Below, in pieces: positions 3,037-34,374 of a stretch of DNA of 64,000 bases (position 1 is its first letter; each line of letters starts with the position of its first letter). The translations under genes and the position numbers were made by a program. Where the stretch lies: NCBI GenBank assembly GCA_016868315.1, contig VGHE01000001.1, positions 434,001-498,000 on the forward strand, in the 5' to 3' direction. The notes beneath the pieces were generated by a model that did not search any database, had not been told where the DNA came from, and was given only the letters and a program-made list of their open reading frames with translations. The DNA is from Betaproteobacteria bacterium. Its GTDB lineage: Bacteria; Bdellovibrionota_B; Oligoflexia; Silvanigrellales; Silvanigrellaceae.

Positions 3037-3666
3037 TCACTTCGGTGCTGCTGCTGATTTCTTCACATCATCGAGGTTCTGGCTCTTAAACTCTTCGATT
3101 CCAACCGAACCCTCAATGGGCTGGCCTCCGCAATCAAGTGTGCCACCATCGAGCAGCCCAGCCTGCGACAGCGATGCTTTTGTACCCGGCAGCAGCAAGA
3201 GTTTACCATCAGCCGGAACTCCAATATTTGTAACATTCGCCGCATCAAAGCCATACTGCTGAAGTGATTTCTGGATGCTTTGATTTTCAAGTGAGATTTG
3301 TTTGAGAGCGGACAACAGACCCGTTGTAGGCTCGATCACAAACAGGTTTCTGAGTTCGTGACCCGTGTTGAGTGTTATCGCGTATTCATAACCAGCGACG
3401 GTTTCTTCGTTGAGAATGTAAAATTTTCTGTTTCGGTAATCTACCCCATTGCACTGGCCTGGGCATGCGACCCGGAGTCCTGACTTCGAGCTGGGATTTG
3501 CTCCGTCGACTCCCGGAGAAATCATGGCACACAAGGTCGCCTGACCTTCCTCTCCGCTCACAAGTTCCTTCGTCTTGGCTTGGTTGTATGAGCGAGGCTT
3601 ACAGGCAAAAAAGCCGCCACCAATTAACCCAACCACACTGGCTAGCATCAGTCTTTGATGAACCAC
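3037..3666 (-). CDS. Lipoprotein with a CKPRSYN N-terminus, function unknown
   Basis: A 209-residue lipoprotein. The signal sequence ends in the lipobox GGFFAC, and the mature protein would start CKPRSYN. The start is a GTG at 3666, preceded by GGGAGGGAA in the ribosome-site position; upstream in-frame ATG codons lack such a site. The mature part has several Cys residues (CAM, CPGQC, DCGG), suggesting disulfides in the periplasm. I recognise no family. The same CKPRSYN mature start occurs on the unrelated lipoprotein at 32281-34374. It is divergent from the small exported protein at 3795. Confidence 0.75.
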   Translation of the reverse strand: MVHQRLMLASVVGLIGGGFFACKPRSYNQAKTKELVSGEEGQATLCAMISPGVDGANPSSKSGLRVACPGQCNGVDYRNRKFYILNEETVAGYEYAITLNTGHELRNLFVIEPTTGLLSALKQISLENQSIQKSLQQYGFDAANVTNIGVPADGKLLLLPGTKASLSQAGLLDGGTLDCGGQPIEGSVGIEEFKSQNLDDVKKSAAAPK

Positions 3667-3794
3667 TTTGATTCCCTCCCGCGCAAACGTGCGCGGGTTT
3701 GATCGGAAAATTGGATTCTTTGAACAAGGAAAAAATTGCATCGTGCCTTACCAAAGTGACGTTGCTATAAGCCAGCAAAACGGAGAAGTGTTCA

Positions 3795-4274
3795 ATGCGA
3801 ATTGAAAAAACAAAAACATTCTGTTTTTTTAAAAATATTTTGTTTGTCGCTCTGCTGTCGTTTGCAGGGCTCTATTTTAGCTTTCGAAAGGTCAGCGCAG
3901 CAGTCGATGCGCTGCCTCGTCCCTTTCCAACGGTTACTGCAACCCGTCGTCCTCCTGCGCTGCAGCCCATTTCAGTTTCCCGTCCTGCCTTGCCCATGTG
4001 GATTGGCCAAGGTGAGTTGCACCCGCACATGGATGAATTTGTTTGTCGGGTGCGATGTGAGCGGAATTGGCTGGGTTACGACCTAGAAGTTCTGCAGGCG
4101 ACCCGTGGTGCTGAGGATTGGGTTTCATTCGAAGGCGAGGCAGTCCGCTGTTTTGAGGAAGAAGCGAATTCTCAGCAGTGGTTTCTGCACGCCGGTCTTT
4201 GGATGACCTCGGCTGATTCGCCTGAGGATAATCTCTGTTTCCTGGTACTCACGGCGAGTCGCCATGTTCCCTGA
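3795..4274 (+). CDS. Small exported protein of unknown function
   Basis: A 159-residue protein with an N-terminal hydrophobic segment (about residues 11-30) after a Lys-rich start, most likely a signal peptide ending near VSAA. A Pro-rich stretch follows, then a compact domain with four Cys that could form disulfides. CGGAGAAG about eight bases upstream supports the ATG. It is divergent from the CKPRSYN lipoprotein and is followed 81 bases later by a histidine kinase. No family recognised. Confidence 0.6.
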   Translation: MRIEKTKTFCFFKNILFVALLSFAGLYFSFRKVSAAVDALPRPFPTVTATRRPPALQPISVSRPALPMWIGQGELHPHMDEFVCRVRCERNWLGYDLEVLQATRGAEDWVSFEGEAVRCFEEEANSQQWFLHAGLWMTSADSPEDNLCFLVLTASRHVP

Positions 4275-4355
4275 TGGGCTGAAAAATCTTCAGCGTCGTG
4301 TTTGCTCCTGTGACCGATATCCTCCTCGTATGAAGAGACGGGAGTGCCTCGGGCG

Positions 4356-5450
4356 ATGATTTCATTTGCTGCCACACAGTATGCAGGTTTTCTTTTGTTG
4401 GCAGAAATTATGTTCTGCCTCCTGCTTTTCCGCAGCGAGCGTCTGCGAGTCTGGGCAGATGTGATTTGTTGTGGACTTGTTGGAGCATTTATTCATTTTT
4501 TGCTGCTTCAGTTTGGTAAAGTGCGCGCGGAAGAATGGGAAGTCCTTTCGGCTTCAATTTTGGTTTTGGGGTTTTCGTTTGTGGGCTGGTCTGCAACCCG
4601 CACTGGAGTTTATCCAAGCCAAACAGATCTCTTACGCGATGAGGGTAATTCGCAAGAGTTAGAGATACCACAGAGAGCAAACACATCCATGCATGATGAG
4701 CGTCTCAAGTTGATGGGTGCGATGTCTGCTCGTTTTGTCCACGAAATGAGCCAACCTGTCGCAATTATGATGCTACGGATCGATGAGATAAAACGTGCGC
4801 GCAAAAATCTTGATGAGAAGTCTCTCGAGAAATCCTTAAACAATATCGAAGTGCAAGTTCAACATTTGGTGCATTTGTCTAAGGCTCTCAAAGATTTTGC
4901 TAGCTCTGACTCCCAAATACAGCCAGGATTTGTGCAGCTTGATGAGATTTTTTCTCTTACAAAAAATCTCTGCGATGCTTGGACACTGATGCAAGGAATT
5001 GAAATGCGATGGCCCGCTAAAATTCCGGATATCGAGGTTTCAGGTGGAACGACACTCCACGCACAGGTGTTGATGAATCTGGTCAAGAACGCAGTTGATG
5101 CTGTTTCCGAGCTTCCCGAAGGACAAACACGCTGGATTGATGTGGCCATCATTGAAAGGGGTGGTGGTGTTGAAATTGCGATTGCAAATGCCGGGGCACC
5201 GATCAACCGAAAGGCGCAGAGCCGGCTCTTTAAGCCCTTCTACTCGACCAAACGTATGGGACAAGGGCTTGGATTAGGTCTTTCCATCTGTCAGCAGCTT
5301 GTGCACTCTCTTGGTGGTGAAATCTGGTACGACGAAACAGCCTCTTATCCGCGTTTCGTCGTGTGTTACTCATTTCTGCCTTCAGTGCGTAGCCGGATGA
5401 CAGAAAAATCCTCCACGGATGAGCAGCATTTTGATCGGAACGTCGCCTGA
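4356..5450 (+). CDS. Membrane sensor histidine kinase (orphan)
   Basis: About 364 residues. Three hydrophobic segments lie in the first 80 residues, followed by a dimerisation/phosphoacceptor region with the H box RFVHEMSQP (His about 129), the N box LMNLVKNAVDAV, a G1-type box with Asn instead of Asp (IANAGAPI) and the G2 box GLGLGLSIC. This is a complete HisKA/HATPase core with almost no periplasmic sensor loop, so the signal may come from the membrane. No response regulator is adjacent. ATG 4356 has GGGAG eleven bases upstream; GTG 4344 is an equally possible start. Confidence 0.85.
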   Translation: MISFAATQYAGFLLLAEIMFCLLLFRSERLRVWADVICCGLVGAFIHFLLLQFGKVRAEEWEVLSASILVLGFSFVGWSATRTGVYPSQTDLLRDEGNSQELEIPQRANTSMHDERLKLMGAMSARFVHEMSQPVAIMMLRIDEIKRARKNLDEKSLEKSLNNIEVQVQHLVHLSKALKDFASSDSQIQPGFVQLDEIFSLTKNLCDAWTLMQGIEMRWPAKIPDIEVSGGTTLHAQVLMNLVKNAVDAVSELPEGQTRWIDVAIIERGGGVEIAIANAGAPINRKAQSRLFKPFYSTKRMGQGLGLGLSICQQLVHSLGGEIWYDETASYPRFVVCYSFLPSVRSRMTEKSSTDEQHFDRNVA

Positions 5451-5457
5451 TAGGTTT

Positions 5458-6666
5458 TTAAAACCGGTAACCTGCTCCCAAGGAAAAGCTCAATTTTTCA
5501 ATCTGAGATTTGCTCAGCTGATCATTCACGAGTGGCAGAGAAAGTTTAACATTAGCATAGTCGAAGTTTAACTCGGCATACGCTCCGCGCCAGACCGGCA
5601 CATTAAGATTGATACCCGCAAAAATTGGCAAACCTTCGGTCTTAAAGTTCTCCGATGTGTTGGTGGCTTCACCATCCTCCAAGACTGGGGTTTTGTATTT
5701 CGTGCCCAGTCCCAATGCACCGGAGAGAGACAGGCGAGCATTTTGTCCGACAACGAGCCCCTGCTCGGCATAGAGTCCGAATCCTTGTCCGTTGAGCTCT
5801 CTCACCGCAGGAAAGAGGGCGTCGACATTTGTGCCGGCTTTTGCGAGTGTCGATTTGCTCGCGAGGCTATCAAGCAGCACAAGCCCAACCTCTGTCCATA
5901 GGCGAGCGTCTGAGGTGAGTGCACGTGCACCCCCACGAAATTGGTAGGCTGTCGTTGCAAAATTTTGGGTACCAATGACTTTACCTTCTTTGACGATATC
6001 CAGCGCGGGGCTCGTTGCACTGCTTGAAAAGACGACACCTGCGCTACCCTGCAAATTGAATTTCCCAAATCGCATAGGCTGGCGCGGAAAGGCGGCTGAT
6101 GCGCGCAAACCAAATCCGCGCTGGGTGTATCCAGGGCTGAGGAATTTGTTGAGAGCCAATCCTGGAAGTGATAATTGGTGCACAATGAATGCACCTGAGA
6201 GCGATGCGACTTCACTTATTTGAGTGCCGGAAGCAAGGGCGCTTGCAGCACTTGAAGAGGACAACGGGCGAATCGCATAGCCACTCAGTGATGAGCAATT
6301 CTCCTCACCAACAAGTACTTGTGCCATGAGTCGCGAGGAGTTTCGATTCACACGGACAAGCCGCACAATTGCAACGCGGTTCTGCCCTCGATCGAGAACC
6401 TCTGCAAGTTCGCCTTCATTCATGCCACGTATTTTAACGGGCACAAGGCAGGTCTTCTTTTGAACATTGCGGCTCCCTGAGCCGATTTTTCCAACTCCCA
6501 CCGTGTCACTGTTTTTCTTTGAGCGACCACTCTGTGCACTGGCCATTGAGCACAGGCTTCCCGGAGTAATGCATGCGATCCATAAGCAAATCCGCAGCAC
6601 GGATGCAGTCCGCTGCCACAAGACGGTGAGTTCCATGGGGTTGTTCCGGACATGATCTCGCTTCAT
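5458..6666 (-). CDS. Probable outer-membrane beta-barrel protein
   Basis: About 402 residues. An N-terminal hydrophobic export signal (ending near SMASAQ) is followed by a Ser/Lys-rich stretch, a small Cys-containing domain (residues about 60-130), then a long region of alternating strands that ends in GAGYRF, a typical barrel C-terminus with terminal Phe. The start is uncertain: ATG 6666 has GGAAA eight bases upstream, while ATG 6681 and ATG 6636 are alternatives. It converges on the histidine kinase with a 7-base gap. Family not recognised. Confidence 0.65.
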   Translation of the reverse strand: MKRDHVRNNPMELTVLWQRTASVLRICLWIACITPGSLCSMASAQSGRSKKNSDTVGVGKIGSGSRNVQKKTCLVPVKIRGMNEGELAEVLDRGQNRVAIVRLVRVNRNSSRLMAQVLVGEENCSSLSGYAIRPLSSSSAASALASGTQISEVASLSGAFIVHQLSLPGLALNKFLSPGYTQRGFGLRASAAFPRQPMRFGKFNLQGSAGVVFSSSATSPALDIVKEGKVIGTQNFATTAYQFRGGARALTSDARLWTEVGLVLLDSLASKSTLAKAGTNVDALFPAVRELNGQGFGLYAEQGLVVGQNARLSLSGALGLGTKYKTPVLEDGEATNTSENFKTEGLPIFAGINLNVPVWRGAYAELNFDYANVKLSLPLVNDQLSKSQIEKLSFSLGAGYRF

Positions 6667-6762
6667 GCAATAATTTTCCATAATTGCAGGAAAATCAGCA
6701 AGGTAAAAAATTGCAGGGCTGGAGCCAACGGTCTCGGTTACTGTTGAATGGGAGGGGGGCTC

Positions 6763-8577
6763 ATGATGTTCGCCAATAGCGTGTTGTCGACAGCGGCTGC
6801 AGCGAGCCTGTTTACAACTTCACCCTCTTTTTTCTCCAACCAGGAAGAGCATGGCTCGCGGCTTCAGCCGATGGTTCACGCGGAATCGCCTGTTATCGCC
6901 GTTGCGCCTGGATTTTCTGTTTTGCGCACAGGAAGTTGGGCTTGGGATGGTGTGCCCATCTATGGAACCTCTTTCAAATCTGCTGCTGTCTCGGAGGGGC
7001 AAACTCCCACATGGTTTGCCGGTCATTTTCCAAACGTTGGGATGAATCTCGATGCATTGAGCCTTTCTTCTGGCTTCGAGCTCGACCCGGAACAAGCGCG
7101 TGAATTCTTCTCCCGGCGATTGTCGCTGGGAAGTTGGGAAACACCCCTACCGAAACCGGTTTATGTTGCGAACAACCACCAGCTCGAGAGTTGGTGGCGA
7201 CTTGCGCTCCCCCAAGGAAGAATTTTTTGGATGCGCGAGCACGATTCCTTTTGGGGACAAGAGCAATTTCAACCGCTACATCTTACTGGCAAGGCGGTTA
7301 TCTATCGCGAAAATAAGGTGGTTTCAGCAAGTGCTGGGCTTGAGGAAATTGAACTGACAGATCTGATTGATGTCTCCTATCTGCGTACAAAATTGTTTCG
7401 TGTGTTGAACTGTCTTGGTGCTGCGCAGAGTTATAAAAAATGCGGGAATTATGCCCGTTCAAACAGTGGTGTGTACCGGTACGGCTTCGATACCCCAGAG
7501 CATTCCGAGATGGTGGCTTACTATTCCATCAATCGAGCTATGAAATGGCATCAGAGAATTCAGAGTCCTGAGCAGAAAACCTACTTCGAAGAGTTTGGTC
7601 TGAAAGGTCCACTCGACGTTTTTGTGCGTGTTGCGGATTCTCAAAACGCATTCTACATCGACGTCCCTAATCCGCTCGATAGCCCCAATCCTTTTATCGT
7701 TATTGGAACCGGTGAAGAAACTGATGATGGGAGCAGATTACGCTATCTCAGCAAAGATGCTGATGTATATATTCATGAGTTTGCGCACCATGTTATGTTT
7801 CGATCAATTAAGGAAAAAAGCGTCACGAAACAGGGACGAATCATCCAAGAGGGGCTCGCTGATTATTTTACTTATACGATAACAGGAAACAATTTTCTCG
7901 CAGAGAGTGTTATCGATTTCGGTGGTTCGCTCCGTCAGGGCAATAAAGCAACCATCCTGGATGAGAGCCTTTTTCCTCCATCAAGTGCAGAAGCAATGTA
8001 TGAGGTGGGTGCAGTTCTGAGTTCAGTGATTTGGAGCATGCGTGAAAATTCTGCGGAGTGGCGAGATGGCTACCGCAGAATAGACAAAGTCCTGTGGGAT
8101 TCCATTGACCTCGTTCCCGCGAGCGCAACGCTCTATCAACTCGCCTGCGCGATGTACATTACCGCAGGCAATTTTGAACGCTCCGAAAATATTCCCTCCG
8201 GCACTGTGCGCACACCTATGACAGACATTTTTGTGCAACGGAATTTCTTCGCGAGCAACACTCCCGCAGCCGGCGAGAATTGTCCGCCTATTAGCGCAGT
8301 CCTTCAGACAGCCGACTCGCGAGAGGGAGAACCAAGCTCGCTTCCTCCGGTGGAAACGCCCCGGACGCCCGTTCCTTACACGGGTGAAAGTTTGCCAGCA
8401 TTACCGCCTGTTTCTGGCAGTATCTATGTTCCACTCCAACCGCGGCGTCCGCTCTGCGGTACCATCGCAGCTTGGAGTGGCAAACAGAATGCTGCTCCAT
8501 TGTTGCTGCTGACGCCGTTACTTTTCATCGGATCGAGGCTTCGTAAATTGCTCCGATGGCGGCATCGCTGCCGATAA
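6763..8577 (+). CDS. Exported zinc metalloprotease (HExxH) with C-terminal membrane/Arg tail
   Basis: A 604-residue protein. The zinc-binding motif HEFAHH begins at His 338, and a third ligand is likely Glu 363 in EGLADYF, the gluzincin arrangement of thermolysin-like peptidases. The N-terminus is hydrophobic and suits a signal peptide. After a Pro-rich stretch the C-terminus has a Cys-Gly-Thr, about 14 hydrophobic residues, then an Arg-rich end (RLRKLLRWRHRCR), the tripartite layout of bacterial C-terminal sorting signals. GGAGGGGGG at 6751-6759 places the start at ATG 6763 (or 6766). Its last 53 bases overlap the convergent gene. Confidence 0.8.
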   Translation: MMFANSVLSTAAAASLFTTSPSFFSNQEEHGSRLQPMVHAESPVIAVAPGFSVLRTGSWAWDGVPIYGTSFKSAAVSEGQTPTWFAGHFPNVGMNLDALSLSSGFELDPEQAREFFSRRLSLGSWETPLPKPVYVANNHQLESWWRLALPQGRIFWMREHDSFWGQEQFQPLHLTGKAVIYRENKVVSASAGLEEIELTDLIDVSYLRTKLFRVLNCLGAAQSYKKCGNYARSNSGVYRYGFDTPEHSEMVAYYSINRAMKWHQRIQSPEQKTYFEEFGLKGPLDVFVRVADSQNAFYIDVPNPLDSPNPFIVIGTGEETDDGSRLRYLSKDADVYIHEFAHHVMFRSIKEKSVTKQGRIIQEGLADYFTYTITGNNFLAESVIDFGGSLRQGNKATILDESLFPPSSAEAMYEVGAVLSSVIWSMRENSAEWRDGYRRIDKVLWDSIDLVPASATLYQLACAMYITAGNFERSENIPSGTVRTPMTDIFVQRNFFASNTPAAGENCPPISAVLQTADSREGEPSSLPPVETPRTPVPYTGESLPALPPVSGSIYVPLQPRRPLCGTIAAWSGKQNAAPLLLLTPLLFIGSRLRKLLRWRHRCR

Positions 8578-9679
8578 AAGTTCCGCGCTGCTGCAACCAA
8601 ATAAAGTCAGGACGAGCGTCTTGCAGCCAAACACCTCCGCGGATGCGACCTTGGGCATCAATCTCGAGTCGATATCTGTAGAGAACCGAACCTACAGCAG
8701 GCCGCTCAACAAGTTGACCCAAGGCGTTCCATTGTGGCTCGACTTCCATTCCATAATGCATCGCTGTCTCAACGATGATTTCTGATTGAGTTCCTGATGC
8801 TGCGCCGGGTGATGCTCCTTGGCGCGCGATTTCACGACTCTGGAATCTATAAATAGGTTGATTCCAAACCTCACCCATGCGAGCAATGTCTGCCACAAAT
8901 CCTTCCCTGAGAAGACCAATCTGGTTCGCCAGAACGACGTGAAACGCACCGGCATTGGAGTCGCGGCAGGGCGGTGTATTGAGTCCGAGAATTCCGAATG
9001 TATTACAACGCGCTCCCAGTCCGAGCGCTGCGCGCGTGTTTCGTGTTGCCATATGCCAAGTCAGTAAAGCTTTTACGTCTGAAGAGCCGAAGGGTACCTT
9101 TATTCCGCCAGGCCCCTTCAAGGTCACGGGCTTAGGCTCGAGATATTCGAGTGCCGCTGGAGCCCAGCCATGACACAGCCCCTCCCAAGCAGCTGCGCCA
9201 GGATAGGTGCGTCCGCGCTCGGATTTGACTGTTGGAAAATCAAAGCGACCCGCGTAAATATCTAACTTTTCCGCAGGCGAGAGAGCCGCGAGCTGAGTCT
9301 GTGACATGGAAGCTAGGGTTTGCCGAGAGTGGAGCGGATAGGCGAATGGACTCCCCACTGGATTCATCCATCGAAAAGCGATGCCAGCCCTCTGAGTGGC
9401 CCAATAGGAATCAGACCAAGGCATTCGATTCAAGCTTCCGGACTTTGGCAGCTCCTGAAATCGCAGCTCGTAGTTTCGCCCAAATCTCGAGGGCTCGTTT
9501 ATGACGTCCCAGGCCTCGAAGACTGTAGCTTTCTCTTCTGATTGCTCCACAGAACACGAAGTTGCAATCGAGAAGCTCGCGACGCTCAGCAAGAGCGTTT
9601 TCAGGGTTCTGATGCGACGACCACTTTTCAGCCCAAGTTCATGCCATCGATTCCTGACTGTTGCTGTAGGTAAGCTCAT
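8525..9679 (-). CDS. Transglutaminase-elicitor (GP42-like) family lipoprotein
   Basis: A 384-residue lipoprotein (lipobox IATSC, Cys 42). It matches the transglutaminase-elicitor family, known from Phytophthora GP42 and some bacteria: PWSDSYW (87-93), SPAEKLDIY (134-142), LCHGWAPAA with Cys 169 as probable catalytic Cys, AFHVVLAN with His 247, and VWNQPIYRFQSRE (271-283) at the place of the Pep-13 peptide. It would act outside the inner membrane, perhaps cross-linking or deamidating proteins. GGAGGAGG eight bases upstream fixes the start. A larger paralogue lies at 32281-34374. The family call is from memory of motifs; activity is inferred. Confidence 0.8.
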   Translation of the reverse strand: MSLPTATVRNRWHELGLKSGRRIRTLKTLLLSVASFSIATSCSVEQSEEKATVFEAWDVINEPSRFGRNYELRFQELPKSGSLNRMPWSDSYWATQRAGIAFRWMNPVGSPFAYPLHSRQTLASMSQTQLAALSPAEKLDIYAGRFDFPTVKSERGRTYPGAAAWEGLCHGWAPAALEYLEPKPVTLKGPGGIKVPFGSSDVKALLTWHMATRNTRAALGLGARCNTFGILGLNTPPCRDSNAGAFHVVLANQIGLLREGFVADIARMGEVWNQPIYRFQSREIARQGASPGAASGTQSEIIVETAMHYGMEVEPQWNALGQLVERPAVGSVLYRYRLEIDAQGRIRGGVWLQDARPDFIWLQQRGTFIGSDAAIGAIYEASIR

Positions 9680-9701
9680 GACCTGCGCCTCCTCCAGAGA
9701 A

Positions 9702-9730
9702 AGACGTGCGGGAGGAGTCCTCGCACGTCT
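9702..9730 (-). terminator. Hairpin between the GH57 gene and the transglutaminase-elicitor gene
   Basis: A perfect 9-bp stem, AGACGTGCG at 9702-9710 against CGCACGTCT at 9722-9730, with an 11-base loop, starts at the stop codon of the GH57 gene. On the minus strand only a short T-rich run (TTTCTCT) follows, so it may be a weak terminator or attenuator, or an mRNA-processing site. Confidence 0.45.
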
Positions 9731-11019
9731 CAGGAGAGAGTAACGACTCTGTCGTATTTTGCCGATGGAGCAATGTTGATGCTTGAATCAGATTCTGCGC
9801 CAAGGCTGGCTGGTGTGTTCAGCTGCAGTGCGCGTTGTACACGACAAACACGCTCAAAAGCTTCTACAGCACTGCGGTGATCCAAATAGGCATCGTAGGG
9901 TGAGTCGTATGGGCTAAAGTATTTGTGGACATCGCCGTCGTGTGAATACTTGATGCACATGTAATAGAAGTGGTCGCTGGTCTGGAGTTTGCGCCATTGT
10001 TCGGTTAGTTCCGGGTTGGCGATTGCACGCACCATGGGCTCGAGTGCCATCACGCGATCGAGCGCTTCTTCCTGAAGAGGATTGCTCAGCCATGCGGACA
10101 AGTCGCGTTCGGTATCCGCCCAGCTGGTGGGCACAGGAACGGCCATAGCGCTGCGCGAATCGCGCTGCAGAGCTTCCTCCACGCCAACAAAGTGCAGCTG
10201 CGGATGTGAAACCACTCTGTGAATGAGATCCTCGAAGAAATGGAAGATTCCGGAATCGGCCCACTGGTGTTCACCAAAGGTTTCGTAATCCATGAACAGT
10301 CCAATGAACTCATGTTGTCCATCGAGAAGTGATTCCAGCCAGTTTACATAGCGGTCTGCCGTGAGAGGCCAACTTGCCCAATTGCGATCAGAGAACCGGA
10401 AGGCCATGTCGTCGGAGAGCTTATAGCTCTTGGGCAGAAGCTTGAGCGAGCTCTGCGTTGGGTGGCGGAAAACGTGATGCGCATTCCAGCCCTGGGGCAG
10501 CCATGGATCCCAACCCTCGAGCAAACATCCCTCGAAGCCGAGTTGTGAAACCAGGCTGCCAATGGCGTCAGAGTATATCAACTCCGTGTTGCGGAAAACG
10601 CGGGGGGTTTTGTTGAATAAATTCTTCAGCGTGCAAAGCTGTTCTGCAACCTGACTGCGGAACTCATCTGCAGAGCGCAGAGCAGCCAAAGAGTGGTGTG
10701 AAGTTTCGCAGATGATGTGTGCGTTGGGGAGCTGCCCCAGAAAAGTATAGAGAGCGTAAAGGTGAGGATCGTATTCCTTGCATTGGCTTAAGAATGTTCC
10801 GCTGAAGGAGAACGAAACTCGAAAATCATTCGGGTACTTTAAAAGAAGATGCTCGAGCAGTTTTCCCATCGGCCAATAACATTTTTCGGCGACTTTATGG
10901 AAAACACTGCGGTTTTTCTCATCGCTGAAGAGCTGCTCTGCAGGAGTATTTTCGTCGAGTCTGACCTGACGCAAGCGGTACGGCTGATGCACTTGAAAAT
11001 AAAAACAAAGAGCAACCAT
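9730..11019 (-). CDS. Glycoside hydrolase family 57 (alpha-amylase-like)
   Basis: A 429-residue enzyme of the GH57 family, which hydrolyses or transfers alpha-1,4-glucans. Motifs: FQVHQPYRLR at the N-terminus (region 1), RNTELIYSD (Glu is the candidate nucleophile) and FMDYETFGEHQW (Asp is the candidate acid/base). There is no signal peptide, so it is probably cytoplasmic and acts on stored glycogen or imported oligosaccharides. ATG 11019 has GGAG eight bases upstream; in-frame codons farther up have none. It sits between a lipoprotein and a subtilase gene on the same strand. Exact specificity cannot be read. Confidence 0.88.
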   Translation of the reverse strand: MVALCFYFQVHQPYRLRQVRLDENTPAEQLFSDEKNRSVFHKVAEKCYWPMGKLLEHLLLKYPNDFRVSFSFSGTFLSQCKEYDPHLYALYTFLGQLPNAHIICETSHHSLAALRSADEFRSQVAEQLCTLKNLFNKTPRVFRNTELIYSDAIGSLVSQLGFEGCLLEGWDPWLPQGWNAHHVFRHPTQSSLKLLPKSYKLSDDMAFRFSDRNWASWPLTADRYVNWLESLLDGQHEFIGLFMDYETFGEHQWADSGIFHFFEDLIHRVVSHPQLHFVGVEEALQRDSRSAMAVPVPTSWADTERDLSAWLSNPLQEEALDRVMALEPMVRAIANPELTEQWRKLQTSDHFYYMCIKYSHDGDVHKYFSPYDSPYDAYLDHRSAVEAFERVCRVQRALQLNTPASLGAESDSSINIAPSAKYDRVVTLS

Positions 11020-11091
11020 TTGAACGACTCCGGAGCTTGGATTTGCTCGGGAGTGTACCTGCAAATTTGTCTGAGCAACATAATCGTGGCG

Positions 11092-12408: not shown

Positions 12409-12590
12409 TGTTGACCTCCGGCGTTGGTTCAGGCTTGCAGGCGAGGGAGGAGAACTTCAAGAAGGCGAGAAGTCTCCCCCTGATTTGGCAGGTTGGCGAG
12501 GCGGGACGTTGTTCATGAGGAATCAAAACATCTCATGGGATGTATTCCATTGTTTGAACACCGTGGTTTGGGACTGTTGTTAAGGTAACG

Positions 12591-12616
12591 AAAAAAAAGG
12601 CAGCATGAGAACTGCC
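12591..12616 (-). terminator. Rho-independent terminator of the response regulator-HPt pair
   Basis: On the minus strand the stem GGCAG/CTGCC (12612-12616 with 12599-12603), with an 8-base loop, is followed by eight T residues (A-run 12591-12598 on the plus strand). It lies 35 bases beyond the HPt stop codon. The rest of the gap from 12409 to 12590 shows nothing else recognisable. Confidence 0.75.
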
Positions 12617-12650
12617 GATTCACCTGAAATGGTAAGGATTAGTTTTGTAT

Positions 12651-25558: not shown

Positions 25559-26283
25559 GTGCTGCATTGACCATTGCACAACGAGATTTTCGTGGATTCC
25601 TTGGCACTCCGGTGGGCTGGATTGCCGCATGTATTCTTTTCCTTGTTTCGGGTTTGCTTTTCACTATCGTTACCGGGCAGCTGTTGCTCAAGGGTGAGTC
25701 GGTAGATCCCGTAGCTGAAATCATGGGTAGCCTAATTGGCTTTCTGAACTACATTAATATTTTCGTAGTGCCGATTTTCACAATGCGCGTCATGAGCGAA
25801 GAGCTTGCACAAGGTACTTTCCGTTTGCAGGCTGGCGCTCCCATCAGCTCCGGAGAAATCGTTGCCGGAAAATTCCTTGGCATTATGTTCTATTTTTCCA
25901 TCATTGGCCTGCTGTTGCTTATTTATCCAGTTTACGTTTCTGTGTTTGCAGAGCCAGACTACAAGGTCATGTCATTAGGATTTCTGGGTCTGATTCTCAA
26001 CATTGCAGCAATTGTGTCGATTGGTCTTTTTGTTGCTTCGCTCACCCAGAATGCGGTTATTAGCTATCTAGGCTCCGTCTTTTTCGTCATCCTGTTCCTG
26101 TTCAGTGCTTATATTAAAGGTATGCCTGAGTGGTATCAGCGTTCGGTCAATATTCTTGAACTGGGCAATGAATTGTCACGCGGAATTCTCAAAACATCAT
26201 CGGTGGCCATCTACCTTGCGATTGTGGCTACTTTCCTGTTCTTGAGCCGTTTGGTCGTTGAAACCAAGCGTTGGAGAGTTTGA
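25555..26283 (+). CDS. ABC-2-type permease, GldF-like
   Basis: A 242-residue inner-membrane protein with six hydrophobic segments. MRVMSEELAQGTFRLQAGAPISSGEIVAGKF is partly typical of ABC-2 permeases (the EE..GT..L..P.s..eiv.GK pattern near residues 80-105). It overlaps the ATPase gene by four bases (ATGA), so translation is coupled. With the GldA-like ATPase it would form the membrane channel of the exporter. Confidence 0.87.
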   Translation: MSAALTIAQRDFRGFLGTPVGWIAACILFLVSGLLFTIVTGQLLLKGESVDPVAEIMGSLIGFLNYINIFVVPIFTMRVMSEELAQGTFRLQAGAPISSGEIVAGKFLGIMFYFSIIGLLLLIYPVYVSVFAEPDYKVMSLGFLGLILNIAAIVSIGLFVASLTQNAVISYLGSVFFVILFLFSAYIKGMPEWYQRSVNILELGNELSRGILKTSSVAIYLAIVATFLFLSRLVVETKRWRV

Positions 26284-26284
26284 A

Positions 26285-28030
26285 ATGAAAAAATATCGTC
26301 TTGAACTTTCAATTGGACTCATTCTCGCATCGCTTCTCGTGCTGCTCCTGTGGAGCAATCTGGCTGCAGTTGCCCCGCAATTGCCGATTGGCTTGCTAGC
26401 AGCTTGTCTTGTTGGTCTAATCTCTGTCATTGCGCCATGGCCAGAGCGCGATTCTGAAGGCCGCGTTGTCTCCTCTCCCACCGAGCGTTATGCGCCCAAG
26501 GAGTTTGCACTGGCGGCTGTTTGGAGTGTCCTGGGCATTGTTATCATCATTGGTGTGGCAACTCTTCTAAACCGCGACCGGTTCAGCAAGACCTTTGACC
26601 TCACCCAGCGTAAAGTGAATTCGCTGAGCACAGAGACGTTGAATGTTCTGAAGGAATTAAAGACCGATGTTCAGATCGTCTGTATTCCTTCTCAAAATCA
26701 GCAAGAACGCTACTGCGACGAAAGCACTCAGTTGCGGCGCCTTTTCGCAGAGAATTCTCCGAAGATTCAGCATTTCGCGCTCAGCCTGGATGATCCCGAG
26801 GCTTTCCAACAGGTGCGTCCGGGCGGCTACAGCCGGCTTGTTCTTTTGACCAAAGACAAAGCCCGCAATGAGGTTGTTGGTGCGGTAACTGAGAGCAAAC
26901 TCACCAACGCGCTTTTGAACCTAACCAAATCCAAGCGCGCAGTTTATTTCCTCACGGGCAATGGCGAACATGAAACATCTATGGAGGGCGGCCGGAACTT
27001 CTTCAACGTGGCTGAGATTCTTCGCAATCGCAATTACGAAGTGATTCCTCACAAGATCACCGAAGAGCTTCCTGCTCAGGCTCAACTTGTCATTGCTGGG
27101 CCGGCTCAAGGGCCATACACGCAGCTTGTCGAGAACAGTCTGCGTCGCTTTCTGGCGCGCGGGGGGCGATTGATTTTCGTCGTCAACCCCTATCGTGAGC
27201 CAGGGATGCCAAAGCTGTTTGCAGATCTCGGTGTTAGGCTTGATTCCTCGGTTCTCATCAACAACCGTGGTGCAACTCAATTTGGTGCGCAGCTGGCGCA
27301 ACTTGATCCGATGCGCCCACCAATCATTATCGGTGAATTTTCCCGGAACTCGCCGGTCACGAGCCCCTTCCGCACAACTGATGTCGGCCTTGCAGACGGA
27401 GCTCGTGCAATGAGCTTCGCTGCTCCTGCGTCAACTGATGCAAATGCATTGAAGGTCAAGGGCACAGAGCTCATGTCGGCAATCCACTCTGCACCCGTCA
27501 CTCTCACCGAAGACCAACGCAACCGTCTTCCTTTGGAGGGTGACTTGGCGCTGAAGCCAAACGCTGGTTTCGACCCCAACAAAACCTATACAGTGGCTCT
27601 CGATCTTGAAATCGAGAATCCCGCGAAGTTGGCAGAGGGCTTACCAAGCGCAACCTTGGCGTCGAAGGATTCGGTAGCAAACGTCGGACTCGAGAGCGGC
27701 ACAACGCCTGATAGCGCTGACAAGTCCAAGTCAGATGCAGCAACTCCCGCCGCGTCTGCAGATAAAGCGCCCGCAGGTGTTGTGGTTCTCGGTTTCGATC
27801 CGGTTGCTTTTGAACGCATTCAGCTGGTCACGACCAACATCATGCCAATTGCGGTAGCTCACCTTTATAAAGATCGCGACCTCATCAGCATACCTAATAA
27901 AGATTTCGCTCCGAAGCGTTTCAAGCTTGAACGCAATCCAGGAAACTTTGTGCTGTTGTTTGCGTTCATTCTGCCTCTCCTGACTGCTCTGGCTGGCCTG
28001 TATATCTACGTTCGTCGGAGGTCTGCATGA
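26285..28030 (+). CDS. GldG-family ABC transport accessory protein
   Basis: A 581-residue protein. There are two hydrophobic segments near the N-terminus (about residues 8-50 and 82-102), then a large periplasmic part with the GldG hallmark FDLTQRKVNSLSTETLNVLKEL, a GNGEHE motif and an Ala/Ser/Asp-rich insert near residues 460-510, and a final membrane span followed by RRRSA. GldG-type proteins form a complex with the ABC-2 permease. GGAGAG seven bases before ATG 26285 sets the start. The next gene overlaps by four bases. Confidence 0.87.
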   Translation: MKKYRLELSIGLILASLLVLLLWSNLAAVAPQLPIGLLAACLVGLISVIAPWPERDSEGRVVSSPTERYAPKEFALAAVWSVLGIVIIIGVATLLNRDRFSKTFDLTQRKVNSLSTETLNVLKELKTDVQIVCIPSQNQQERYCDESTQLRRLFAENSPKIQHFALSLDDPEAFQQVRPGGYSRLVLLTKDKARNEVVGAVTESKLTNALLNLTKSKRAVYFLTGNGEHETSMEGGRNFFNVAEILRNRNYEVIPHKITEELPAQAQLVIAGPAQGPYTQLVENSLRRFLARGGRLIFVVNPYREPGMPKLFADLGVRLDSSVLINNRGATQFGAQLAQLDPMRPPIIIGEFSRNSPVTSPFRTTDVGLADGARAMSFAAPASTDANALKVKGTELMSAIHSAPVTLTEDQRNRLPLEGDLALKPNAGFDPNKTYTVALDLEIENPAKLAEGLPSATLASKDSVANVGLESGTTPDSADKSKSDAATPAASADKAPAGVVVLGFDPVAFERIQLVTTNIMPIAVAHLYKDRDLISIPNKDFAPKRFKLERNPGNFVLLFAFILPLLTALAGLYIYVRRRSA

Positions 28031-29511
28031 AGCCGTGGCTCAAGATCACTCTGGCAGTGGTCGCAGGCGCTGCCATTTGGGGAGGGCTGGTGCTCGACCA
28101 GCACCTTGCTGAGAAGGAAGAAGTGAGCAAAAAGCAGGAAGCCAAAGTGCTTGATTTTGAGAGCAAAGATGTTCTTAAAATCACGCTTCAGAACAAACAC
28201 GGTCAGTTTGTTTTTCAGCGTGACACCGCGACATCGGATTGGAGGTTGGTGCAGCCACAAGGCCCGAAACTGGATCAGGATTCCATTCGGAACATGCTTG
28301 CCGCAATTCAATCTCAGAACTACGAGCAGCATCTTGAAGAACAGCAGAAGGCAATTGATTCTTTCAAGAAAGGTGATGCAGCTTCAGCTCAGGTTTTCGG
28401 CTTCGAGAAGCCGCGCGCGTCCGTGGTTCTCGATGTCGCAGCAAATAAAGAGGCGGGCACAAAAGCACGTGAGCTGAAGTTCTGGTTGGGCGGTGATCTC
28501 GCGTTCGGAGCGGGAGCGGGCGCGGCTTTCAATGCAGTCTCGAGCTATGCAGTGAGTTCCGATCGCAAAGGCCTCATTGTAGTCCCGCACTCGCTGCTCA
28601 CTTCGTTGGAAAAAGATCTGAAAGATCTGCGCACGAAAACCATCGGTGATTTCCTCACAGCCGACGTTGCTTCTTTTGAACTTACCAAAAGCGATGGCAC
28701 GCAACTTGTTCTCTCAAAGTCGAAGGACAACGGTCAGAGCATCTGGTCTGTCAGCAAGCCAAAGCAAATTAAGGCTGACAACAATCAGGTGGGTCTCTAC
28801 CTTGATTCGTTCACTCGGCTCCGTGCGGACAACATCACCGAGTCTGCGGCAATCAACGAGCAAAACAAAACTGCCCTCGGCTTGGCAGCACCGAGTGCTA
28901 CGCTTGTTCTCAAGGCCGAAGATGGAAAGGTTCTCCAGACGATTCAGATGGGGCTCACGAAGGAGTCGCTTTACCTGACGCTGGCCGATGGAGCTGTCGG
29001 AAGTGTCGAATTGACAAAATTTTCCGACCTTGCGCCCTCTTTGAAATTCTTTCGCGATCGTCGGGTGTTTGCGGGTGTAAGCTTCAACGATATCAATCTG
29101 TTGGTTACGAAAGCTGGTCAGCGATACCAGAAGGAAGGATCGGCTTGGTATAATGCTTCTGCGGATGCACCCAAAGATCCTAAAAAACCAGAGAAAGTTG
29201 CCGTCGATGACGCCAGAAACTTTGTCGAAGATTGGGAGTTCTCAACTGCGGAAGATATCCTAGATGCCGACGAAACAACTGAATTGGCGAAGTTTGGACT
29301 GGATAAGCCCCTGACTCAATTTACTTTGGGTTCGACGGACGACAAAAAGCCACAAATTCAGGTGACGGTTGGCAATCGAGTTCCCAATAACGAAAAAGCG
29401 GTCTATTTAAAGCGAGCCGATAAACCCGAAGTTTTCGTGATGGAAACGAAATGGCTTGACGTGCTCACCCGTCTTGATCAAGGAGGGCAGAGTCCACAAG
29501 CCAAGAAGTGA
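28027..29511 (+). CDS. DUF4340 domain protein
   Basis: A 494-residue protein with one N-terminal membrane segment (about residues 6-26), then a periplasmic region with repeated units of the DUF4340 type (KVLDFESKDVLKITL, DWRLVQP, FGFEKPRA, then again TADVASFELTKSD). This family nearly always lies next to GldG-like genes, as here. It overlaps the previous gene by four bases (ATGA) after a CGGAGG ribosome site. It probably binds the exporter's cargo or its periplasmic module; the function is unproven. Confidence 0.85.
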   Translation: MKPWLKITLAVVAGAAIWGGLVLDQHLAEKEEVSKKQEAKVLDFESKDVLKITLQNKHGQFVFQRDTATSDWRLVQPQGPKLDQDSIRNMLAAIQSQNYEQHLEEQQKAIDSFKKGDAASAQVFGFEKPRASVVLDVAANKEAGTKARELKFWLGGDLAFGAGAGAAFNAVSSYAVSSDRKGLIVVPHSLLTSLEKDLKDLRTKTIGDFLTADVASFELTKSDGTQLVLSKSKDNGQSIWSVSKPKQIKADNNQVGLYLDSFTRLRADNITESAAINEQNKTALGLAAPSATLVLKAEDGKVLQTIQMGLTKESLYLTLADGAVGSVELTKFSDLAPSLKFFRDRRVFAGVSFNDINLLVTKAGQRYQKEGSAWYNASADAPKDPKKPEKVAVDDARNFVEDWEFSTAEDILDADETTELAKFGLDKPLTQFTLGSTDDKKPQIQVTVGNRVPNNEKAVYLKRADKPEVFVMETKWLDVLTRLDQGGQSPQAKK

Positions 29512-29524
29512 GGACTCTTCGCCT

Positions 29525-30190
29525 ATGTCAGCCAAGACTGAACTTATACTGGTGCCCGTTTCGACCCACACTGGTGAATTGCGCATTCTCGTGAAGCGTG
29601 ATTCCTCAACCGAGAAGCAGACCCTCCCAGGAACTCTTCTCAGAGCCGATTTCCTGCAAAAATCTGGCCTCGAGTACGCACTGCGCGAAATTCTTTCGCA
29701 GTGCGATGCCGAGGAGCTTTCCTCCTGGATCGCATCGTCCAAGTGCAAAGATCGCGTCGTGGATGTGTACGACCGCGATCTCTTGTTTGAAGGCGCACAG
29801 AGCGTTGCAATCGTCCGCGTTGTAGCTATCCCGAGCGAGCTCGCTCCCGATGCGCGTGGGCTCTGGTTGACCCCTGCAGAGCTGTTTGCCGAAACGAGTC
29901 ACTTGTCGCACGACTGTCGCTTGTTCATCCGAGATGCATTGGCCTCGGTTCCCTATTGGATCCGTCATTCTTCGCTGGCATTCGAGCTTCTTCCTAAGGT
30001 GTTTTCCATCCAGGATCTGCGCCTTCTGGTTGGGCTTCTCTCGGGGCAGGATATTGACCCTGGGAATTTCCATCGTCGCCTGAAGAGGCTCGATTTACTC
30101 AATCCGCTCGTCGCGGGGCAGCGAGTGCACAGGTGGGAGTTCGCCTGGGGCAAGGGTGAAGTTTTGAAGGGCGAAGGGCTTATTCCTTAA
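29525..30190 (+). CDS. NrtR-like protein: degenerate Nudix domain plus winged helix
   Basis: A 221-residue protein. Residues about 1-140 look like a Nudix fold with the remnant ALREILSQCDAEELS, where the catalytic EE pair of the Nudix box is lost. Residues about 150-215 (LAFELLPKVFSIQDLRLLVGLL...FHRRLKRLDLL) match the winged helix of NrtR-type regulators. NrtR family members bind ADP-ribose or related metabolites and repress genes of NAD or sugar metabolism. It lies 13 bases after DUF4340 at the end of the exporter operon, so it may sense a nucleotide and regulate this operon. Confidence 0.75.
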   Translation: MSAKTELILVPVSTHTGELRILVKRDSSTEKQTLPGTLLRADFLQKSGLEYALREILSQCDAEELSSWIASSKCKDRVVDVYDRDLLFEGAQSVAIVRVVAIPSELAPDARGLWLTPAELFAETSHLSHDCRLFIRDALASVPYWIRHSSLAFELLPKVFSIQDLRLLVGLLSGQDIDPGNFHRRLKRLDLLNPLVAGQRVHRWEFAWGKGEVLKGEGLIP

Positions 30191-30203
30191 GCCCTTTTTT
30201 TTT
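30174..30203 (+). terminator. Rho-independent terminator of the gldA-like operon
   Basis: A 9-bp perfect stem, AAGGGCTTA (30174-30182) against TAAGCCCTT (30188-30196), with a five-base loop, is followed by a run of T residues to 30203. The stem contains the stop codon of the NrtR-like gene. Confidence 0.9.
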
Positions 30204-30214
30204 GGCACGTGCGC

Positions 30215-30243
30215 TTGACCTTCATTCCGCGAAAATCTATACC
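30215..30243 (+). promoter_or_regulatory. Promoter of tRNA-Asn
   Basis: TTGACC (30215-30220) and TATACC (30238-30243) with an ideal 17-base spacer, ten bases before the mature tRNA 5' end. Confidence 0.65.
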
Positions 30244-30252
30244 CACGGGCGT

Positions 30253-30328
30253 TCCCCAGTAGCTCAGTCGGTAGAGCAGCGGACTGTTAATCCGCGTGTC
30301 GTCGGTTCAAATCCGGCCTGGGGAGCCA
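30253..30328 (+). tRNA. tRNA-Asn (anticodon GTT)
   Basis: 76 bases fold as a cloverleaf. The acceptor stem TCCCCAG pairs with CTGGGGA. The D-arm is AGCTCAGTCGGTAGAGCA, the anticodon arm CGGACTGTTAATCCG has GTT, and the T-arm contains GGTTCAAATCC. The discriminator is G and CCA is encoded (30326-30328). It has its own promoter and lies between convergent protein genes. No integrase or duplicated tRNA end is seen beside it. Confidence 0.95.
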
Positions 30329-30356
30329 TCTCTTTCAAGCTTGCCTTGCACTGCTC

Positions 30357-32135
30357 TCAAGCCACATCTAGTTCGTAATCTTGCCGTTCTTCGCTCTTGG
30401 CTTGGCCAAAGGGATACACGAATATTTTGAGCAATTCTGACTCGTCGAGTTCAGTCAAATCCAGATTGCGGCAGCCGATGTTGCAGATTGTGAGCTGGCT
30501 CTCTTTGTTCAGATTGACCCAGCGCGGGCGCGTTTGGCTATCGCTGCCTAGGCCGAGCGGATCTGCATGGGGCGTTAAATAAATCGATTTACTGACCGAG
30601 TATTTGAGTTCTGGAGGCGGATAGCCTGCGTTAATGAAGGCCATGATTTTCGCTTCGGGTTCGATAATTGCCATGAACATTGAGGTGTGGACTGTTCCCA
30701 ACAGAACGCCCTCTGCGGACAATGAGGCCATGTTGAACAGCTTCTGAATCAGCAACTCACTCTCTTCTGTGAAGCCTCCCGTGCCCAGGGCTTTGTTGAG
30801 AACAAACTTGATTGTGTATGCACTTGTGGCGGCTGCTAGACCCTCACCGCTCGCATCACCCACAGCAAGAAAGATTCTTCCTTGGTCGAGGTTTCGAAGA
30901 ATCCACCATGAACCGCGATACTGCGTCGAAGAATTTGTTTCGACTTTGACCACTGCGTCGCCTGCAAGTTGCATTTCGCCCGAAGCTCCAAAATCATCGA
31001 GTAGGTGTTGGCAGAAATCGCGCTCGAGTGACCGCACGTTCTTGCCCTGAGTACGAGTTATCTCGCGCGCCTCTTTGCTTCCCACTGCTGCTGTTTCGAG
31101 ACCTAGAATATCGGGAGCCTCAGATTTAAGACTCAGACGCCAGAATTGCTGTCTGTAGCTCCACAGCAGCAAAACAAAGCTGGCGGCAAGCCAAAGGAGT
31201 GCGAAAATCCAGTCACTGAGGAAAGATGGGCGGTCGATTGCGACGTTCGCAGGAATTTTCCCGGCAGGAACAATTTGAATGAGGAATGTGTTTGTATCCT
31301 TTGACTTCTGCCATGCAATCCAAATGCTTTTGCGCGTCATGGCAAACTTGTGTTCCTGTGCACCGCTCTCACTTGTGCGCGAATTCATGAATGCTTGAAG
31401 CTCACTTGTCTCGATTTTGTATTCAGCGAATCCTTTAGAGTAAAGAAACTTCTGGTTCTCTTTGCTGTACAGTGCAATCTCGCCAGGACGCTGCTCGGCT
31501 TGCAAACTCGGCAGCAGTTCCTCGGAGAGGGTATGAACGATCCAAATCGACCAAGGGTTGTTCGATGCTCTGGCTTTATGCGCAACCTGAAGCCACTGGG
31601 CGTTTGGACGCAGACTTCGGATAAAGCTTGCATTTGATGTCTGCTCTGCGGTGATGCCCGAGATGAGCTGCAAGGCACTGGCCTGAGTTTCATTGCTCCA
31701 GGGGATGGGCGAATCCTTGTCGCTCGCGAAAAGCTTGATAGCCTTCGGTGACATCAGGGTTGCCGAAACACTCGGCTCAAATCCCTGTCGTCGTGTGACA
31801 ATGTGGGTTGCGAGCCATTCCGGTTGGTGTTCGAATAATGCTGACCAAGTTCCAACATGGCTTTTCAATTCGCCTGGGGACATGGAGTTGGTGAAGGCAG
31901 AAAGTCGTCGTGAGATGTTCGTCCAATAGGCTGTGCGTCGCTCAAATTCTTTCACTGCGTTGGTCGTGAGACTCGAGAAAGCGTTCAGCTGATTGCGTTC
32001 GTCGGCTTCGCTCCAATCTGAGCGATTCATCATGACGAAGAAGGCAATCCAGACGCTCAATACGAGCCAGAACCGACCTTCGCGGTCGATAGCAGCCTTA
32101 TTCAGCTTGTAATATGCCTTGAGCCGTTCTTTCAC
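30357..32135 (-). CDS. Membrane-bound SpoIIE-type (PP2C) phosphatase
   Basis: A 592-residue protein. There is a membrane span near residues 22-38, a periplasmic sensor-like region of about 270 residues, a second span near 310-330, then a cytoplasmic SpoIIE/RsbU-like domain with GDASGEGLAAATSAYT (metal-binding Asp), SMFMAIIE and FINAGYPPPEL. Such proteins dephosphorylate anti-sigma-factor antagonists in partner-switching systems. No antagonist or anti-sigma kinase gene is next to it. The start is GTG 32135 with AAGGAG six bases upstream. It is divergent from the lipoprotein gene at 32281. Confidence 0.87.
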   Translation of the reverse strand: MKERLKAYYKLNKAAIDREGRFWLVLSVWIAFFVMMNRSDWSEADERNQLNAFSSLTTNAVKEFERRTAYWTNISRRLSAFTNSMSPGELKSHVGTWSALFEHQPEWLATHIVTRRQGFEPSVSATLMSPKAIKLFASDKDSPIPWSNETQASALQLISGITAEQTSNASFIRSLRPNAQWLQVAHKARASNNPWSIWIVHTLSEELLPSLQAEQRPGEIALYSKENQKFLYSKGFAEYKIETSELQAFMNSRTSESGAQEHKFAMTRKSIWIAWQKSKDTNTFLIQIVPAGKIPANVAIDRPSFLSDWIFALLWLAASFVLLLWSYRQQFWRLSLKSEAPDILGLETAAVGSKEAREITRTQGKNVRSLERDFCQHLLDDFGASGEMQLAGDAVVKVETNSSTQYRGSWWILRNLDQGRIFLAVGDASGEGLAAATSAYTIKFVLNKALGTGGFTEESELLIQKLFNMASLSAEGVLLGTVHTSMFMAIIEPEAKIMAFINAGYPPPELKYSVSKSIYLTPHADPLGLGSDSQTRPRWVNLNKESQLTICNIGCRNLDLTELDESELLKIFVYPFGQAKSEERQDYELDVA

Positions 32136-32280
32136 AGTCCACTCCTTCGACCGTGCGCATCGGCGCTCCTGGGAAAGTATTTACAGGACTGTCATGGTTT
32201 TGACGTTCTAGTTTTCTTGGCAACCAGATCCTCCGACATACAAAACGCGCTTTTACTTCACACGAGGAAGGATTCTTTAA

Positions 32281-34374
32281 ATGCAAGCTCCACAAAAAAA
32301 TCAGCGAAGACAATTGGGCATTCTCTCGGGTCTGTTGGCCGTGGTGGCCTTCTCAGGATGTAAGCCACGCTCCTACAATTCGGGCGTTTACGAAGCCCCA
32401 GGAAATGCAGATCGCCCGGAGCGCTTGGGTTTGCCCGCAACAATGCCCTGGAGCGAATTGAAGGATCTCAAGGCGGCAGAACGCAGCGTTCCTTGGACAG
32501 ATACCTATTGGCCTTTGTTTCAAAAAGGTATGGCTGTGCGCTGGGCTGTTCCTGAAGGAGGAGCCACAGCTTTGCCAAAGAACCCTGAAACTCCTTGGCG
32601 GCAAGTGTCGCAGATGCTTGAAGCTTGGAATCAGGGCGACAAGGCTCGTTTGAATTTGCTCTCGCCAGCCGAAAAATATGAGCTCATCAAGCTTGGCGAT
32701 GCAAGCGTGAATGCTTCCCTCTTGGCAGAGCTCGAGGCGAACGAAAAACAATTTCTCAGTGCACCCGGCCTCAAGGAGTCACGCGATCGTCTTGAGGCCA
32801 TCGCCAAACAACAGCAGCAGATGAAGCTGCAAATTGACCAGTTGTCGCGGGAAATAAATGCTCTGGTTTCGAAGGTGCGCGACGACAATGCAAGCGGCCT
32901 AAAACTCAAAGGCTTCCTGAAAGATCCAGCTTTGCGAAATAGGGTTAACCGCGAGGAAGTGCTTCAGCAGATTTCGGTTCTTCAAAATGCGGTGGTGAAT
33001 AATATTGCTGGCATCAAAGCAAAACAAACCGCTTTGGACAACCTCGAAACACAAGCAAAAGACTTCAACAAGAAAAAATCTGAGGCCAAGGAAGTCTACG
33101 ACAAGGAACTCAAGACCTGGCAAAAATCTGGCCTTGCCGTTGCGGGAAAGATGTCCGACTCACTCAATATGATCTCTACGAGCTGGGAGAATTATCTCAA
33201 CTACAGCAGTTCCTACGATGAGCCATGGGAGTGGATGGGACATTGTCATGGTTGGGCGGTTGCGGCTCTCAATGAGGCAACCCCTAAACATGGTGTGCTT
33301 GTGCAGCGTGCTGGAAAGGAAATCTTCTTCACTGAGGGAGATATTCGCGGCCTGCTGACAAAAGTTTACTCTGACCAATCACCTCCAGCAAAATTCGCCA
33401 GTTTGCGCTGTGATAGCGACAAGCTTGTCAAAGACCGATTGGGTCGCGTAGCAGATGGTAAACTGTGTCTTGGTGAGAACAAAAAGTCATGCACGCAAAC
33501 AGACAAGGGAGAGATTGTCTACATTGCAACTGGGCAAAGCCAGCGAGGGTTATCCGTCATTGGAAGCAAGGTGAATGACGATAATCCGCGTGTTGCTGTG
33601 TGGACAGGCGGCGGAACTGAAGACTCGGTTCAGGTTGCTATTTATCCGGATCTCGATACGTTCTCAAAAAATCTTTCCAAAATCCGTGCTCGTGATTACT
33701 CAGGTAGTCAGCGTGGTATCTTGAACATTTCACTCTCTTGCCGCGACACAAATCCGATGACCTTACACATGGCACTGAAGGGATTCATTGCAGACAAGAA
33801 AATCGGTTTCGTGATGGACCGCACTCGAACCGCGCAGGTTTGGAATCAACCGGTGCACAAGTTCGAAATTGCGACGCTTCCTATCAAAAAGAATGACAAA
33901 GATGGAACTCTGAGTGTTCCCGGGGAACCCGTGGCAGTCGCAGAAGTTGATGATCTATTCCGCGATTTCCGCGCAAAGGGCACTGCATTTCTGGTTCAAA
34001 TGAAAGTTAAGTTGCACTATGGTGTCGAGAATGGTCCTCGCTTAACCTATCGTGCTCCAGATGAAGCAACCGATGTCGATACGGTTGTCTACACGCTCGA
34101 GCTCGATGCCAAACAGAATCTCATTGGTGGTGAATGGGGGCTCATTCCGACAACTGAAAATGCGAAGGACTCTTCATTAGCTGCGGGGCGGAGTGGTGCA
34201 GGACCTGACTTTCTTTGGTTGATTGATCAGAAGGAAAAACCAATCAAAGGCAAGCTCGATCATGCCTTGATCGATAAGATCCATCGTTGTTCTCTGGAGG
34301 CCAACAACATTCAGAAATATCCTTGGTCGGTCGGCGGGGTTACGCTCGATTACACCATCTGCAAGGTCGACTGA
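32281..34374 (+). CDS. Transglutaminase-elicitor family lipoprotein with coiled-coil insert
   Basis: A 697-residue lipoprotein (lipobox AFSGC, Cys 27; mature start CKPRSYN). It shares the family motifs of the shorter paralogue at 8525: PWTDTYW (71-77), SPAEKYEL (from 128), HCHGWAVAA with probable catalytic Cys 322, LHMALK with His 496 and VWNQPVHKFEIAT (520-532), the counterpart of the oomycete Pep-13 peptide. Between the second and third motif it has an insert of about 150 residues, largely coiled coil (about 150-290). Several Cys pairs suit the periplasm. GAGGAAGG upstream supports the ATG. The enzyme role is inferred. Confidence 0.8.
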   Translation: MQAPQKNQRRQLGILSGLLAVVAFSGCKPRSYNSGVYEAPGNADRPERLGLPATMPWSELKDLKAAERSVPWTDTYWPLFQKGMAVRWAVPEGGATALPKNPETPWRQVSQMLEAWNQGDKARLNLLSPAEKYELIKLGDASVNASLLAELEANEKQFLSAPGLKESRDRLEAIAKQQQQMKLQIDQLSREINALVSKVRDDNASGLKLKGFLKDPALRNRVNREEVLQQISVLQNAVVNNIAGIKAKQTALDNLETQAKDFNKKKSEAKEVYDKELKTWQKSGLAVAGKMSDSLNMISTSWENYLNYSSSYDEPWEWMGHCHGWAVAALNEATPKHGVLVQRAGKEIFFTEGDIRGLLTKVYSDQSPPAKFASLRCDSDKLVKDRLGRVADGKLCLGENKKSCTQTDKGEIVYIATGQSQRGLSVIGSKVNDDNPRVAVWTGGGTEDSVQVAIYPDLDTFSKNLSKIRARDYSGSQRGILNISLSCRDTNPMTLHMALKGFIADKKIGFVMDRTRTAQVWNQPVHKFEIATLPIKKNDKDGTLSVPGEPVAVAEVDDLFRDFRAKGTAFLVQMKVKLHYGVENGPRLTYRAPDEATDVDTVVYTLELDAKQNLIGGEWGLIPTTENAKDSSLAAGRSGAGPDFLWLIDQKEKPIKGKLDHALIDKIHRCSLEANNIQKYPWSVGGVTLDYTICKVD

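Follow-up and report, generated by a model that had tools for sequence, protein, structure and literature searches.

The window, the 64,000-nucleotide stretch of DNA analysed here, encodes two otherwise unrelated lipoproteins whose mature forms both begin CKPRSYN, and this shared start is one instance of a more permissive motif, C-[K/Q]-x-R-x-[F/Y]-N, that begins exactly at the lipidated Cys. On the sequence evidence, the motif is a real, strong and lineage-specific tag that directly follows the lipobox, and it is carried by a few related freshwater bacteria; Silvanigrella belongs to the Oligoflexia within the Bdellovibrionota. The role of the tag is likely that of a sorting signal. We place at roughly 55% the reading that it would be a lineage-specific lipoprotein sorting signal, read by a receptor, with the cell surface as the most likely destination.

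The initial annotation reported the identical start on both proteins, the lipoboxes FFAC and FSGC ahead of it and no similarity elsewhere, and all three observations are borne out (Table 1). It gave no strand for gene 1, which lies on the minus strand. The signal peptides and the mature domains of the two proteins are unrelated. Gene 1 is preceded by a GGAGGG Shine-Dalgarno sequence at 3679-3674, ahead of the GTG codon, and has orthologues in both other species of the window's genus. Its protein is without a known domain in Pfam and NCBIfam profile searches (0 matches), and its AlphaFold model, with a mean pLDDT of 42, is too poor for fold assignment. The gene 2 protein matches the TGase_elicitor profile PF16683 with 93.2 bits against a gathering score of 25, and 23 kb separate it from an untagged lipoprotein of the same family that serves as an internal contrast. 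The codons of the two tags are unlike at third positions (TGTAAGCCTCGCTCATACAAC versus TGTAAGCCACGCTCCTACAAT), and across the genome (3.24 Mb, 27 contigs) exact matches to CKPR[ST]Y are confined to these two genes. That the identity extends over all seven residues is in part fortuitous: R+4 and N+7 are the only fixed positions, while +6 is aromatic and +2 is biased towards K.

Table 1 Coordinates of the tagged lipoprotein genes, their N-terminal elements and the untagged family member within the window.
Feature	Coordinates	Strand	Basis and details
Tagged lipoprotein gene 1	3037..3666	-	Translation; 209 aa precursor, 188 aa mature; GTG start at 3666, stop end 3037
Gene 1 signal peptide with lipobox FFA-C	3604..3666	-	Sequence
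Gene 1 tag CKPRSYN	3583..3603	-	Sequence; orthologue tags CKPRTYN and CKVRQYN
Tagged lipoprotein gene 2, transglutaminase-elicitor domain protein, 697 aa	32281..34374	+	Translation; PF16683 E 1.9e-26
Gene 2 signal peptide with lipobox FSG-C	32281..32358	+	Sequence
Gene 2 tag CKPRSYN	32359..32379	+	Sequence; orthologue tags CKPRTYN and CKQRRYN
Untagged lipoprotein CSVEQ, transglutaminase-elicitor family	8525..9679	-	PF16683 E 1e-29; lipobox present

Unbiased evidence for the tag comes from a lipoprotein sample of the window's genome and from full-length protein searches. The sample covers 864 kb (the window and a further 800 kb from contigs 1 and 2), in which a rule-based scan found 73 lipoprotein candidates; fractions taken from it are approximate, as the scan misses some lipoproteins, including several that the initial annotation listed in the window, and may include a few false ones. 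A count against chance had been suggested in that annotation, and the outcome is clear: C-x-x-R-x-[FYH]-N stands at the Cys in 7 of the 73 predicted lipoproteins where ~0.01 is expected, which corresponds to P ~1e-17 to 1e-19 under simple site models that ignore relatedness. The same pattern shifted by offsets of 1-39 occurs in 0 of the 73. Random stretches of two more genomes gave the tag in 1 of 24 (G002) and 1 of 16 (G004) lipoproteins, with 0 off register. Chance identity is ruled out by the offset, composition and reversed-pattern controls, and the majority of the cell's other lipoproteins lack the tag.

The strict form CKPR[ST][YF]N occurs five times in the window's genome (reversed-pattern control, 0), six times in one and twice in the other of two further species of the genus, and twice in a different genus of the family. 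All 15 matches, from 14 genomes searched, are immediately preceded by a signal peptide and lipobox, the reversed pattern again giving 0. With C-x-x-R-x-[FYH]-N after a lipobox, the count in the window's genome is at least 15. A search that allowed mismatches and then applied a signal-peptide filter yielded 65 tagged lipoproteins from six genomes of one Silvanigrella-like family, which fall into 41 families without BLAST similarity outside the tag; all 65, and both window genes, pass a rule-based lipoprotein filter (hydrophobic-core signal peptide, lipobox ending in Cys). Among these 65, position +2 is K in 55 and Q in 6, +3 is P in 29 and Q in 12 alongside other residues, and +5 accepts any residue, most frequently T and S. 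R+4 and N+7 are present in 65 of 65, and +6 is F in 42, Y in 20 and H in 3, these limits being imposed by the search pattern; the scan would also have accepted K at +4 or W at +6 and met neither, in loci mostly fetched via the motif itself. Acidic residues are rare in the tag, and +7 is followed by a variable S/T/A-rich linker. The lineage-specific sorting or retention tag put forward in the initial annotation is well supported as a tag at the lipidated Cys (65 copies, six genomes) but is looser than the KPRSYN then described, and that it sorts or retains proteins is suggested by its position, its conservation and the analogy with the Bacteroidetes LES.

A general version of the tag with His at +6 was rejected, as two matches in genome G001 lie outside a usable lipoprotein frame. 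Adjoining lipoproteins L094 and L179 of the very fragmented genome G003 (contig C637, genus g4) begin CKPRTHN and CKTRTHN, a possible His+6 version in numbers too few to judge.

The composition and register of the tag bear on two alternatives. The invariant R+4 and N+7 could be modified or cleaved residues, such that the mature N-terminus would be a site of proteolytic release, glycosylation or unusual acylation. This is improbable: +8 and +9 vary in the 65 tagged proteins, leaving no constant N-x-S/T sequon at N+7, and no enzyme was identified. Alternatively, after ordinary Lol transport the tag could bind one scaffold, such as an outer-membrane barrel, a peptidoglycan or S-layer protein or a vesicle cargo receptor, and so gather its carriers on a common platform. 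A short fixed peptide on varied enzymes, followed by a flexible S/T/A-rich linker, is what such docking would look like, but the strict Cys+1 register suggests that the lipidated end and the tag are read together, which docking need not require, and we consider this explanation rather unlikely.

Could the shared start simply have been copied? The initial annotation had named two outcomes that would undo its proposal, an absence of further genome copies and recent gene conversion. Further copies are those of the 65 lipoproteins above. The second outcome amounts to shared N-terminal ancestry, with signal-peptide cassettes spread by recent gene conversion or duplication, and a few tagged genes are indeed true tandem paralogues (G001:C166 and G003:C637). 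Against this, signal peptides, linkers and mature domains are unrelated, and in homologues the tag persists where its flanks have diverged. Both gene conversion and a DNA repeat are excluded because all 65 tag DNAs are mutually different and all six codons occur at the fixed Arg (CGC, AGA, CGT, CGA, AGG and CGG), and shared ancestry is thus a highly improbable source of the tag. The adjoining tagged lipoproteins L031 and L043 of G001:C166, both CKPRNYN and 77% identical, represent a recent tandem duplication.

Conservation is instead apparent at the protein level. In 44 homologous tagged pairs (mean identity 50%), which are partly motif-ascertained, R+4 and N+7 are kept in 44 of 44, and identity within the tag is 77% at +6 (where F and Y interchange), 70% at +2 and 57% at +3, versus 14-41% at +5 and at +8 to +21 and 9-27% at signal-peptide positions -2 to -15. 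Searches that used each window protein at full length, and so are independent of the motif, recovered close orthologues, and only tagged ones; for either gene they come from both other species of the genus. The search with the transglutaminase-elicitor protein also recovered a further group of paralogues, bearing CQQRGFN, CVQRKYN and CLQRRFN, on the basis of which +2 is the least strict of the conserved positions. A second tagged transglutaminase-elicitor paralogue is located in G000:C17.

Matches to CKxRx[FY]N behind a lipobox number 8, 10 and 2 in three genomes of the window's genus, 4 in genus g2 and 17 in g3, with 1 for the reversed control, and 13 in the other 53 phylum genomes examined, with 6 for the reversed control. 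A phylum-wide signal was rejected, as matches outside g1-g3 are few and near the control level. The subset of g5 matches that was read in frame lies in short frames without a signal peptide, and 0 of 16 lipoproteins in a 400-kb stretch of a g5 genome carry the tag. The genome counts and the g5 frames therefore place the tag in a few genera, with absence or noise level in the sister genus g5. Two lipoproteins of G002 (L263, 1641-3303, and L253, 2378-4127) carry the near-tags CRTRRFS and CATRKFG, possibly degenerate forms in which N+7 has been lost.

Most tagged proteins are orphans, and those with a recognised domain are mostly enzymes. The domains are transglutaminase elicitor, FAD-dependent oxidoreductase, trypsin, M48 peptidase, phospholipase D (PLD), CotH kinase and RoxA-like cytochrome c, and there is also a weak nucleotidyltransferase match. 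One tagged protein is a tiny 58-aa lipoprotein, CKPRSFN (L011, 1348-1521 on the minus strand, G000:C1:203552), with an internal duplicated element EFEL/EFDI...DPxPDxDF and no Pfam match. Twenty untagged lipoproteins of the window's genome include housekeeping types, among them an SLT/LysM transglycosylase, a BamD-like YfiO and TPR proteins, and because a subtilase and a met-zincin, export-like in appearance, are also among them, cargo type does not cleanly separate tagged from untagged proteins. The transglutaminase-elicitor family also has untagged lipoprotein members (CSVEQ in the window, CGAQ in G002 and G003), and its g5 homologues carry an ordinary signal peptide that lacks a lipobox. Because members of this one family are tagged, untagged or non-lipidated, the sequences compared here indicate that the tag is gained or lost within a domain family, as would be expected of a localisation signal.

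A sorting signal read on the mature lipoprotein is the best explanation, because the tag is fixed to the Cys, independent of the domain behind it, conserved at the protein level and present on a subset only. We hypothesize that signal peptidase II exposes the lipidated Cys and that C-[K/Q]-x-R-x-[F/Y]-N is then read by a putative dedicated receptor, which would recognise R+4, the aromatic residue at +6 and N+7, with help from K+2. This receptor would divert tagged lipoproteins away from the default Lol destination, and their most likely endpoint would be the cell surface. The surface is favoured because the recognised tagged domains are mostly enzymes of types that usually act outside the cell, and because in the one domain family checked the sister genus has non-lipidated homologues with an ordinary signal peptide. 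No receptor or machinery specific to the tag was found, and LolA occurs in genera with the tag as well as in those without it.

Established Lol-avoidance rules, D+2 in E. coli and K+3/S+4 in Pseudomonas, are likewise read on mature lipoproteins beside the Cys, but they consist of one or two residues and mean retention, whereas the tag has four conserved positions over six residues. The main rival to surface sorting is nevertheless retention in the inner membrane, in which the basic K+2/R+4 N-terminus would keep tagged lipoproteins from LolCDE, and it holds this place because K+2 marks inner-membrane lipoproteins in Myxococcus. In Myxococcus xanthus, K+2 leads to the inner membrane and A+7 to the extracellular matrix (PMC3222651), so that sorting there also depends on residues found among +1 to +7 of the mature lipoprotein, with +2 and +7 both of importance; the difference is that M. 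xanthus uses single residues rather than a combined motif and has A at +7 where the tag has N. The K+2 of most tags and the cytochrome-like and FAD-dependent cargo would suit inner-membrane retention. However, six untagged lipoproteins in the 864-kb sample of the window's genome also have K+2, tagged ones occur with Q, M, V, L or T at this position, known avoidance signals use one or two residues and no fixed R-x-aromatic-N, and trypsin, PLD and CotH cargo fit an inner-membrane location poorly. We regard retention as unlikely on this balance, and return to the tag as a signal for surface sorting.

Even in well-studied phyla it is an open question how lipoproteins traverse the outer membrane and what recognises their N-termini, and the flippase of Bacteroidota was still unidentified in 2025 (PMC12578637). 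A tag this strong, non-acidic and easy to search for, carried by some genera and lacking in a sister genus, would allow a clean comparison in the hunt for a receptor; it would also let the sorted lipoproteome of an uncultured lineage be predicted from its sequence alone. The strings CKPRSYN, CKPRSFN, CKPRTYN and CKPRTFN were printed in none of the papers searched, and no relevant paper was found on lipoprotein sorting in Silvanigrella.

Slam, in Pseudomonadota, resembles the proposed system in that dedicated machinery sends a subset of lipoproteins to the surface; Slam reads the folded domain and is not known to read an N-terminal tag. In the order the SlipAM profile (PF04575) gave 0 matches, out of 15 genomes searched, with control genomes also at 0. 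The closest likeness is to the LES of Bacteroidetes, represented by QKDDE in C. canimorsus, SDDDD in B. fragilis and SDDFE in F. johnsoniae (Lauber et al. 2016, PMC5080379). The LES is defined by a degenerate acidic core, K-(D/E)2 or Q-A-(D/E)2 at about +2 to +6, is position-critical and is sufficient for surface export in Capnocytophaga (PMC5080379). Both are short motifs in fixed register that immediately follow the lipidated Cys; each is carried by some, mutually unrelated, lipoproteins and is absent from the other class. However, the LES is acidic and the tag is not, for which reason the tag is not classed as an LES: it is basic and aromatic with fixed R+4 and N+7, it belongs to a different phylum, and it is known here from sequence while surface export has been demonstrated for the LES. 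More tentatively, the tag might direct proteins to a separate lipoprotein export route of the Silvanigrella-like clade, hitherto undescribed and served by its own receptor, gained or lost between close genera and independent of both LES and Slam. The best reading is that the tag would be a sorting signal comparable to the Bacteroidetes LES but chemically different, built from K, R, an aromatic residue and N.
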